Of a DNA stretch of 64,000 nucleotides, positions 5,638-17,981 are shown piece by piece; the first letter of the stretch is position 1, and every line of letters starts with the position of its first letter. The position numbers and the translations under genes were made by a program. The stretch comes from Kangiella sediminilitoris (GTDB lineage: Bacteria; Pseudomonadota; Gammaproteobacteria; Enterobacterales; Kangiellaceae): assembly GCF_001708405.1 (NCBI RefSeq), contig NZ_CP012418.1:2170001-2234000 (forward strand). Reading direction: 5' to 3'. The notes under the pieces were generated by a model, which was not told the origin of the DNA, did no database searches, and saw only the letters and a list, made by a program, of their open reading frames with translations.

Positions 5638-7469
5638 ATGACACTGATTGACCGCCTTAGATTACGCCTTGGAGGCTTTGATGCGCTTGCATTGATGGCC
5701 GTTATTGGTTTGATCTGCGGTATTTTGGCCGGTGGTTCCAACATTCTTTTTCGCTATTTCACTGAAAGTTCCTACGTTCTTTGGGCAACCGATCAGTCCG
5801 GTACCAATGACTTCGAAAATGCCAGCTGGTTACTGAAATTACTCCTTCCATCTATAGGTGGCTTAATAGTGGGCCTACTGCTACAGCAGTTAAACCCAGA
5901 GACACGACGAGTCGGTGTATCGCACGTACTGGAGCGCATGGCTTACCACCAAGGACATTTACCACCGAAAAATGCCATTGTTCAGTTTTTTATCGGTGGA
6001 TTAACAATTGCCTCGGGTCAATCCGTAGGTCGTGAAGGCCCCGGGATACATCTCGGCTCAGCCACCGGCAGTTACATTGGCCAGAAAATTAAACTGCCAA
6101 ATAACAGTATTCGCATTCTGGTTGGCTGTGGTTGCGCAGCGGCTATCTCCGCAAACTTCAACACTCCCTTGGCCGGCGTCATCTTTGCCATGGAAGTGGT
6201 GATGATGGAATATGCTGTGGCCAGCTTTATTCCGATCATCTTGGCGTCGGTTTCAGGCGCCGTAATGAGTCGCATCTTTTTTGGCTCAGATCCCTCTTTC
6301 AGCGTCCCATCGGCAATGGACGTACAGTCTCTATGGGAGATGCCCTACTTTTTGCTGCTAGGTTTCATCAGTGGAATCGTTGCCAGCTTATTTATCTATT
6401 TCACTAGCCAGGTACGCAAACATTCGCGAGACTGGCCCGTCTGGATAAAGACCACTGTTGCTGGAACCAGCGTTGGCATTATCGCTTTAGGCGTTCCAGA
6501 AGTTATGGGTATTGGCTATGACACTGTTAATGCTTCGTTACACGGCGAACTGCTGCTCTCAATATTAGCACTGAGTCTTGCCGGAAAATTTTTGGCGACC
6601 ATAATCTGCTCCGGGTTATCATTACCGGGGGAGTACTAGGCCCTACTCTATTTATGGGCGCCATGCTTGGTGGCGCTATGGGAAATCTGGGTGGCGAAGT
6701 ATTCCCAGATCACGCTAGCTACGAAGGCTTTTATGCCATCATCGGCATGGCAACGCTGATGGGTGCGGTTCTTCAAGCTCCCCTGGCTGCACTGATGGCT
6801 TTACTAGAACTAACCAATAATCCCAATATTCTCTTGCCGGGGATGTTTTCAATCGTAATCAGCAACCTGGTCGTAAGTCAGCTGTTTAAACGTGAGTCCT
6901 ACTGGGAAACTCAAATGACCGATCGTGGAATGCGGCTTAAAGTCAGCCCAATGAAGCAGGTTTTGCGTAGTATTGGTGTTGCAGGGGTTATGACTCGCAG
7001 TATCACCTATTTAAAAACTAAGGCTACAGCTCAAGAAATCTCAATTGCATTACAAGAAAAACCCCGTTGGATTTTGATCAAAAATGATCAGGAGGAAGTT
7101 ATTTCTCTAATGGTTGCGAGTGACCTGGGTCGATACCTTATTGAAAAAGAAGAACAGACAGAAAAGAAAAGTGCTAAAAAGAAAACTCCGTCGGAAGAGT
7201 TTTCAGAGGAAATGGAAGAACAAAGCCAGCAGGTTGACAGTGAACCAGATGTCATTAACCTGATGGACATTCCAGCTAATCGCCAGGAGCTGGTAGCCAT
7301 CGACTTACAGGCAACGCTGGAAGAAGCCTACGATAAGATGGAACAACGTAAAATTTCAGCGGCTTATGTCTATCGCATCACACATAATAAAGAAGAGCGT
7401 ATTTACGGTATTATTACCCGAGATATGATTACAGATCAGTATATTTTCTCAAAAACACAGGTTGGTTAA
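5638..7469 (+). pseudogene. ClC-type chloride channel/transporter with CBS domains, broken by a 1-base frameshift
   Basis: Two consecutive frames make one ClC protein of about 610 residues. The first part (5638-6639) carries the signature GREGPGIHLG and most of the membrane helices. It runs into TAG at 6637-6639. The second part (open to 7469) continues with GPTLFMGAMLGGAMG and ends in a cytoplasmic CBS pair. The break is in a run of five G at 6627-6631. With six G the frame would read SLPGGVLGPTLF, the expected conserved ClC loop, so one G is missing. An indel in a homopolymer could be a sequencing error; otherwise the channel is inactivated. hemJ starts 3 bp after the end and may be translationally coupled. 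Confidence 0.85.
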
Positions 7470-16292: not shown

Positions 16293-17981
16293 ATGAGCTT
16301 AGGCCCATTTTTTAAAAGTAAACGCTCCATCCTTTTCTGGATAGCTCTTATCAGTGCTGTTCTCTCCATCTTTTTTTATCAAAAATACAGTCAACTTGAT
16401 TCCCATTACAGTATTTTGCCTCAGCCGGGTAAAACGCCGTCCTATGCAGAAGACACTAATCGTTTACTCTTGAAACGACAGCACCCTGAGGGGTTTTTCG
16501 TCAATAATCCAGACCTGTTTGCAGAGCCATCTGTGCTTAACTTAGAGAGTCTGAGGCTTTCCCGATATGCAGTGGACACTTTAAATCTGCTTGGTGCTTT
16601 GGATAACATTGATCGAGAAAACTTAATCCAGTTTGTTCTGAAAAATCACAAGGCTCCGAGCAATGCAATTGGAAACTTAAAAGGCTTTTCTGCATTACCT
16701 AATAGCATCGTTAATATTCGAGCAACCATGGATTCGGTAATGATCTTAAAGCAGCTAAATGCACTCGACCGAGTTGACACCGATGCCATTGCAAACCTTA
16801 TCTTGGCTTATCAAAATGAAGATGGTGGCTTCTGGGATCCCGGCTATTCGGAGTTTGGGCAAAGGTCGACTGTACAGGCGACATCTTTTGCTATCAGGAC
16901 TTTGCTCCATCTGGATAAGATAAAGTTATTGAATAAGTAACAACAGCAGCAAATCAATCAATTCATACAAAGCTCCTGGTCTAAGGATGTAAAAGCTTTC
17001 TCTCACCTCCCCGGCCAGCCAGCAAACAGTAGTTACGATAACTATAGAGCCTGGATTAGTGTTCACTACCTTCCTCTAAACCAGGAAACTCCTGAAAAGG
17101 TTGCCGAGATTCTTCATCTACCAGAAATGATAAACACGCTAAATACGACTTTCCTAACCAACGATAAGGTATACAGCGAGCGTGGTGAGTCTCAGATAAA
17201 CTCTCTAAAAGCTTCATACCTGACAGTACGCATGTTTAGTGAGCTTGGAAAGCTGGATGCCATTCCATCGTGGGAAATTGTACAATTTATAAAAAATTAT
17301 AGAGACTTAAACGGTGGTTTTTCCGGCGATATCTATTCTGTCTACTCCGTGGTTAAAACTTTAACCTTTCTGTCACCCACCCATACCTCATCCAAACTGG
17401 TAACTTATCGACTATTAACTTACGTCACTCTGATTCTTACACTGGTATCCCTAGGTTTTCTATTTGTCATTCGCGGCAAAGTGCAAAAAATCAAACAGAC
17501 GGCTCTGGAGCGAAAAGCTCAAACTGATCGATTAACTGGATTGCATAATCGTGAATTCCTGGAACAACGTTACGTTAACTATCAAAGTGGAAAGGCGCAT
17601 ATTGCCCTTCTATTACTGGATGTCGATCATTTTAAGAGTATCAACGATAACTACGGCCATCTGGCAGGTGATGAGGTCCTCATCGAGCTGGCCAAGCTAC
17701 TAAGTGATAATATTAGAAAAACCGATACTCTAGCCCGCTGGGGAGGTGAGGAATTTGCCGTTCTCTGTCCCGCAACCGATCCAGAGCATGCCAATATTTT
17801 TGCAGAGAAGCTACGCAGTATGGTCGCCAGCCATTCCTTTTCAAAGCCCGAAACCATCACCTGCAGTATAGGACTTTCCTGCTCTCACCATAACGAACCT
17901 TTAAAAAGCTTATTTGCGCGTGCGGATAAAGCGCTATACGAATCTAAAAATAGTGGTCGTAATAAAGTGACCTATCTCTAA
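16293..17981 (+). pseudogene. Diguanylate cyclase with prenyltransferase/terpene-cyclase-like periplasmic domain, interrupted by in-frame TAA
   Basis: One reading frame of 562 codons is broken only by TAA at 16938-16940 (codon 216). The frame is open on both sides. Layout: membrane helix (about 12-28), predicted periplasmic region (30-370), second membrane helix (about 373-395), GGDEF domain (405-562). The periplasmic part has recurring helical units such as DGGFWDPGYSEFGQRSTVQATSFAIRTLLHL and DLNGGFSGDIYSVYSVVKTL, which resemble prenyltransferase/squalene-cyclase toroid repeats. GGEEF is intact at 484-488, with an I-site RKTD five residues upstream. The stop is followed by CAA CAG CAG CAA, so CAA to TAA is the simplest origin. 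The downstream part has ATG 17127 but no clear ribosome site. Confidence 0.75.

Follow-up and report, generated by a model that had tools for sequence, protein, structure and literature searches.

Membrane-bound diguanylate cyclases such as GcbC and YfiN/DgcN carry a sensor between two transmembrane helices, and in these proteins the sensor is CACHE- or PAS-like. Enzymes have also been turned to sensing at the cell surface, as in BlaR1, an enzyme-derived membrane sensor in which an enzyme fold is used extracytoplasmically. The alpha-alpha toroid, the third element of the comparison made here, is the fold of the protein prenyltransferase beta subunits. In RabGGTase, the zinc ligands are Asp238, Cys240 and His290, diphosphate is bound by Arg232 and Lys235, and the lipid pocket is lined with aromatics (PMC9141697).

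The gene described here lies in a 64,000-nucleotide stretch of the Kangiella sediminilitoris genome (a single contig of 2,496,140 bases), referred to below as the window. Like GcbC and YfiN/DgcN, it has the layout of a sensor, here a putative one, between two transmembrane helices followed by a GGDEF domain, with a GGEEF motif and an I-site; unlike theirs, this putative sensor is a toroid. With BlaR1 it would share the use of an enzyme fold as an extracytoplasmic sensor, but fold, ligand and output differ and the likeness is one of analogy alone.

The gene is one frame of 215 codons, a TAA, 346 further codons and a terminal TAA (Table 1). The original prediction had described a single protein made of a membrane helix, a toroid, a second helix and an intact GGEEF domain with I-site, cut by one stop followed by CAA CAG CAG CAA. 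Both the order of the parts and the stop with its following codons were confirmed, the former by Pfam matches to both domains, by hydropathy and by stop-free relatives, the latter directly in the sequence. Hydropathy windows above 1.6 begin solely at residues 10–13 and 369–380, giving two membrane helices that flank the toroid. From the positive residues before the first helix and after the second only, we infer that the toroid lies on the periplasmic side.

Table 1. Features of the interrupted toroid-GGDEF gene, in window positions.
Feature	Position	Strand	Basis or remark
Whole gene frame, TM1 - toroid - TM2 - GGEEF	16293..17981	+	Interrupted at codon 216; stop-free in 14/19 other same-genus genomes
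TM1 helix, residues 10-39; K8, K10, R11 N-terminal of TM1	16320..16409	+	Model helix and hydropathy
Predicted alpha-alpha toroid, residues 40-363, protein-prenyltransferase beta type	16410..17381	+	Pfam PF00432; alignment to 6o60_B
In-frame TAA, codon 216, private to the K. sediminilitoris genome	16938..16940	+	0/14 orthologues
Ser304-Leu-Lys306, places of RabGGTase beta zinc ligands Asp238 and Cys240	17202..17210	+	Ser and Lys invariant in 22/22 rows
Tyr348-Ser349, place of RabGGTase beta zinc ligand His290, register-dependent; no His	17334..17339	+	Alignment
Long helix 364-412, TM2 and signalling helix	17382..17528	+	Model, hydropathy
GGDEF domain, residues 409-558, RKTD I-site and GGEEF	17517..17966	+	150.1 bits; motif in 21/21 rows reaching GGEEF

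With codon 216 translated as an amino acid, the output domain matched the Pfam family GGDEF (PF00990) with an E value of 5.8e-44 (cut-off 23.8 bits), and the post-stop part on its own also passed (151.3 bits). The Cas10 palm family PF22335 was likewise above its cut-off on the same stretch (29.5 versus 27), far more weakly than GGDEF. The window frame retains both RWGGEEF and the I-site RKTD, and the spaced motif RxxD-x5-GGEEF occurs in 21 of 23 aligned rows; the other two, L048 and L059, end before it. When four of the proteins were compared with NCBIfam, the generic GGDEF model alone was above its cut-off and the cyclase equivalogs all fell below theirs. From its sequence, the gene is a predicted inner-membrane diguanylate cyclase of the GGDEF family. 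The genome holds sixteen further GGDEF matches, so that loss of this one gene could be tolerable.

The toroid was recognised both by sequence and by predicted structure. Pfam, run on the same read-through translation, placed Prenyltrans (PF00432) on the protein with an E value of 3.7e-15 (56.6 bits against a cut-off of 26.5; best stretch residues 86–246), and the pre-stop part alone still passed at 42.3 bits. An AlphaFold2 model of the read-through protein, made with 21 relatives as input, had a mean pLDDT of 89.9 and a pTM of 0.68, with 14 helices listed from residue 52 to residue 360. In a Foldseek search, ranks 1–22 were GGDEF proteins and a RabGGTase beta subunit appeared first at rank 23 (E 6.3e-10). 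Re-examination of Foldseek's own match list with VIA-align placed the RabGGTase/GGTase-III beta subunit at the top (6o60_B, Z 30.1, rmsd 2.4 over 279 residues, 16% identity, model residues 40–363), followed by the beta subunits of GGTase-I and FTase. The control fold of a stop-free homologue, L050, gave a pLDDT of 89.5, a pTM of 0.64 and the same Z of 30.1 to 6o60_B.

Squalene and terpene cyclases were not among the best 50 VIA-align rows, a list that was drawn from Foldseek matches and so excludes nothing. The sequence profile gave the same order, matching RabGGTase beta with an E value of 8.3e-10 and the terpene cyclase 8j5z_A with only 0.0024. By model and profile, the toroid fold is real, and its nearest relative is the protein-prenyltransferase beta subunit (RabGGTase) and not squalene cyclase. 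The proposed checks by structure prediction and fold search thus bore out the toroid, and of the description as prenyltransferase/squalene-cyclase-like the first half stood and the second gave way to RabGGTase beta. The likeness to the beta subunits extends across nearly the whole domain and is still visible in the sequence profile; the protein differs from them in being bacterial, membrane-anchored and fused to GGDEF, with no known alpha subunit. With squalene-hopene and other class II terpene cyclases it shares related toroid repeats, but it has a single toroid, besides the weaker match.

To place the gene in its family, 60 other related genomes were searched. A full-length protein without internal stop was found in 14 of the 19 other genomes of the genus at 35–73% identity; the window frame is therefore not a chance one. 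Among the matches listed from these 60 genomes, none outside the genus covers the toroid. Orthologue comparison, which had been put forward as a check, returned one gene and not two; with the homologues forming one frame, two ancestral genes were ruled out. The gene is missing from the remaining five Kangiella genomes (G003, which is just 86% complete, G006, G011, G013 and G019) and is therefore dispensable.

Two peptide patterns from the toroid found at least 22 loci in a species-genome collection: 11 in Kangiella or Kangiellaceae, 10 in others and one in a Thorarchaeota MAG. This is a lower bound, because the gene-bearing same-genus genomes G005, G007 and G016 are not among them. The ten others are from Sedimenticola (two), Thiolapillus, Chromatiaceae, Thiotrichales, Candidatus Thiodiazotropha, a Ctena symbiont, two gammaproteobacteria and one MAG labelled Krumholzibacteriia, and the family thus reaches the sulfur-oxidiser lineages Sedimenticola, Thiolapillus and Thiodiazotropha. 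The whole protein is one frame in 20 of the 22 loci; L048 leaves its contig before the GGDEF domain, and L059 is a 150-residue fragment that matched no Pfam family. Both domains were above the Pfam cut-off in all seven full-length homologues tried. In a class-level sample, 5 of 369 genomes, K. sediminilitoris included, had a match at E ≤ 1e-10; in a phylum-level sample of 398 genomes, a threshold of E ≤ 0.001 yielded nothing beyond the K. sediminilitoris copy itself and two matches that were short and weak. The toroid-GGDEF family is a rare one of mostly marine bacterial signalling proteins.

Two members are of uncertain origin. The 150-residue frame in the region 5788–7684 of L059 (Thorarchaeota MAG) resembles the first membrane helix and first toroid repeat (38% over 64 residues) and is overlapped by a PAS-histidine-kinase frame; it may be relic or fusion, or else a chimera made in assembly. 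L057 is a full-length member binned as Candidatus Krumholzibacteriia that is gammaproteobacterial in the tree, by misbinning or by transfer.

The window and the 11 Kangiella loci share one arrangement (12/12), in which the gene is flanked on one side by pyrB and hemL and on the other by an SDR gene and an aldehyde dehydrogenase gene. The five gene-less Kangiella retain the SDR gene with the aldehyde dehydrogenase gene next to it, and the 1.5 kb before the SDR gene gave no toroid or GGDEF match in any of the five. For the two in which this flank reaches hemL (L070 and L071), about 1.26 kb separates hemL from the SDR gene. Other reading frames fill the pre-SDR flank in all five (L069–L073), and the site looks like a variable spot. 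L069 has an IS200-like (Y1) transposase there and L072 a frame resembling it, and L073 carries a HigB-like toxin together with an HTH protein. No cluster of neighbours is common to Kangiella and the other loci, three of which share a few neighbours among themselves; outside Kangiella the neighbourhood is variable and gives no hint of function.

The ten non-Kangiella rows group together in the tree (100/100), and a subgroup of six rows (the window gene and L038–L042) is split off by a long branch of 1.42 changes per column. Note that the root is a midpoint, so that the tree does not decide whether Kangiella forms a single clade. The long-branch subgroup sits at the same locus as the other Kangiella copies; its rate, or perhaps its ligand, may have shifted.

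The stop itself is a private feature of the K. sediminilitoris genome. The frame is broken in this strain and intact in its relatives, as in a pseudogene with a disrupted frame. The stop falls in a gapped, variable loop whose alignment column holds five different residues among the 14 orthologues, so the ancestral codon cannot be inferred; the suggestion of a CAA-to-TAA change is accordingly not upheld. After the stop, the branch leading to the window gene measures 0.268 and that of its nearest relative 0.192 (for the GGDEF part, 0.206 versus 0.134); before the stop, the values are 0.157 and 0.146. Private departures, window versus nearest relative, number 12 versus 6 in the 152 invariant columns that follow the stop and 4 versus 4 in the 120 that precede it. 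A clean dN/dS test is precluded by synonymous sites, which are saturated even in the comparison with this closest relative. From these comparisons, the post-stop sequence appears to be still largely constrained; the 12-versus-6 excess and the longer branch leave slight relaxation possible. Advanced decay was considered and is not supported, since the frame carries neither a second internal stop nor a frameshift and its branches are just modestly longer. The stop would thus be either a recent nonsense change, recent being measured against a divergence with saturated synonymous sites, or a base error.

One other gene of the window is in a comparable state. A ClC-type chloride channel with a CBS domain (5638–7469) lies in two frames and corresponds to one frame of 617 aa in K. 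geojedonensis (G007). Its break adjoins a run of five G and may be a frameshift or a sequence error, the same ambiguity as for the TAA.

The first alternative to weigh is that the TAA is an assembly base error and the gene is intact in the strain, all else being as in the reading that we favor below. The stop is a single private difference in a frame that is otherwise intact, and sequencing errors often fall beside homopolymer runs such as the five G at the second disrupted gene. The lesion in the cyclase gene, however, involves one codon and no indel. Of 62 G007 frames with a counterpart in the window, four appeared with a stop or split, two of these four proved by eye to be differing start sites, and 60 of the 62 are undisrupted in the window after inspection, which also speaks against a base error. 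We regard a base error as a possibility to be taken seriously, though the less probable course.

Invariant residues were then assigned to parts of the toroid, with inner and outer helices labelled by hand from the helix order in the AlphaFold2 model. Of 41 invariant toroid residues, 36 are at inner-helix N-ends (14 in 60 columns) or in loops (22 in 160 columns); the remainder are in other inner-helix columns (4 in 38) and outer-helix columns (1 in 68). The invariant charged residues are R62, D74, E78, R91, R143, D147, D177, D182 and K306, and R88, R252 and D346 are kept in 21 of 22 rows. This pattern seems to fit a pocket for a ligand at the mouth of the toroid, one that would be more polar than a prenyl pocket. 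The loop residues could instead belong to a surface on which a partner protein docks or through which the protein oligomerises, the toroid then being no small-molecule sensor. In solved relatives, the toroid is half of a heterodimer and the rim of the beta subunit binds the alpha subunit, and more than half of the invariant residues (22 of 41) are in loops; against this, no conserved partner gene adjoins the gene outside Kangiella, and the invariant residues at inner-helix N-ends suit a pocket. Docking is, in our estimation, unlikely.

For the catalytic residues, the letters at the zinc-ligand, diphosphate and aromatic places of RabGGTase were confirmed in chain 1dce_B, and RabGGTase was aligned to repeats 5–6 of the toroid family. 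Asp238 and Cys240 correspond to Ser304 and Lys306. His290 corresponds to Tyr348 (22/22) in the MAFFT register and to residue 349 (Ser, Thr or Asn) in the gap-free one, and never to His. The places of Arg232 and Lys235 are in a variable loop of the family, those of Tyr241 and Trp244 are the invariant Ala307 and Leu310, and several pocket aromatics are not kept. A profile of repeats 5–6 alone did not cover the zinc residues and gave just a short weak repeat-5 match in register. Note that at about 16% identity this residue mapping could be locally off, as the one-residue shift at His290 between registers illustrates. The terpene-cyclase motif DxDD was found in none of 23 toroid rows. The Asp-Cys-His zinc site is thus apparently missing from the toroid, and at the level of residues the prenyl-chain role that the original prediction had associated with such folds is not supported. 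That the toroid is still an enzyme acting on prenyl or terpene substrates, with a cyclase fused to it, would accord with its fold and Pfam family, both enzymatic; with zinc ligands, diphosphate-binding Arg and Lys, several aromatics and DxDD all wanting, we hold this to be very unlikely.

Use of the gene as it stands, either by readthrough of the TAA or by restart to yield a shorter membrane-bound or soluble cyclase, would account for the constraint after the stop and could draw on in-frame ATG or GTG codons at 17127, 17232, 17349 and 17481, but it is scarcely credible, as none of the 14 orthologues has a stop, the surrounding RNA folds like its shuffles (z 0.14), and all four internal starts lack AGGA, GGAG or GAGG in the preceding 20 bases while the true start has AAGGA. 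Readthrough had been offered as one explanation of the stop; as a conserved feature it was ruled out on the first two of these counts, and a reassigned stop codon was ruled out since TAA ends 31 of the 48 window frames of at least 200 aa.

We therefore return to the reading that we favor and consider probable: an inner-membrane cyclase in which a zinc-less toroid of the prenyltransferase-beta type serves as a periplasmic, ligand-binding pseudo-enzyme sensor, interrupted here by a nonsense codon of recent origin or by an erroneous base. Our confidence is tempered because the fold is more certain than either the topology or the zinc register. In this reading, a ligand of polar or anionic character would bind near the invariant R91, R143, D147, K306 and Y348 and shift the last toroid helix (residues 347–360), which in the AlphaFold2 model is followed by a short break, the continuous helix 364–412 and the GGDEF domain. 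This shift would pass into the long helix, with its membrane and signalling parts, and set the geometry of the GGDEF dimer and thereby the output of cyclic di-GMP, with the I-site giving product inhibition. Should the stop be real, the K. sediminilitoris gene would yield a membrane-anchored partial toroid without cyclase.

A more specific proposal is that what the zinc-less toroid senses in the periplasm is a phosphorylated isoprenoid, for example undecaprenyl phosphate, or else some other anionic amphiphile, and that the signal is passed on as cyclic di-GMP; the head group would be bound by the Arg, Lys and Asp residues that are invariant at the mouth of the toroid. We consider this improbable because the prenyl-diphosphate-binding residues of RabGGTase are not kept; if true, it would couple the state of an envelope lipid carrier to biofilm signalling.

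In the titles and abstract openings found by searching the open-access literature, subscription papers and preprints apart, the toroid-GGDEF architecture was not described. Fold and output domain are each known; we find the combination and the dead site to be new, and the combination may already sit in some domain-architecture database without discussion. The signals sensed by most diguanylate cyclases are an open problem. A conserved putative sensor with a clear enzyme fold and apparently no metal site offers a defined candidate pocket for testing, and because the same residues are invariant in 22 rows, ligand searches and mutagenesis can be targeted. If the sensor reading is true, the family would be a case of the protein-prenyltransferase fold serving signalling in bacteria.
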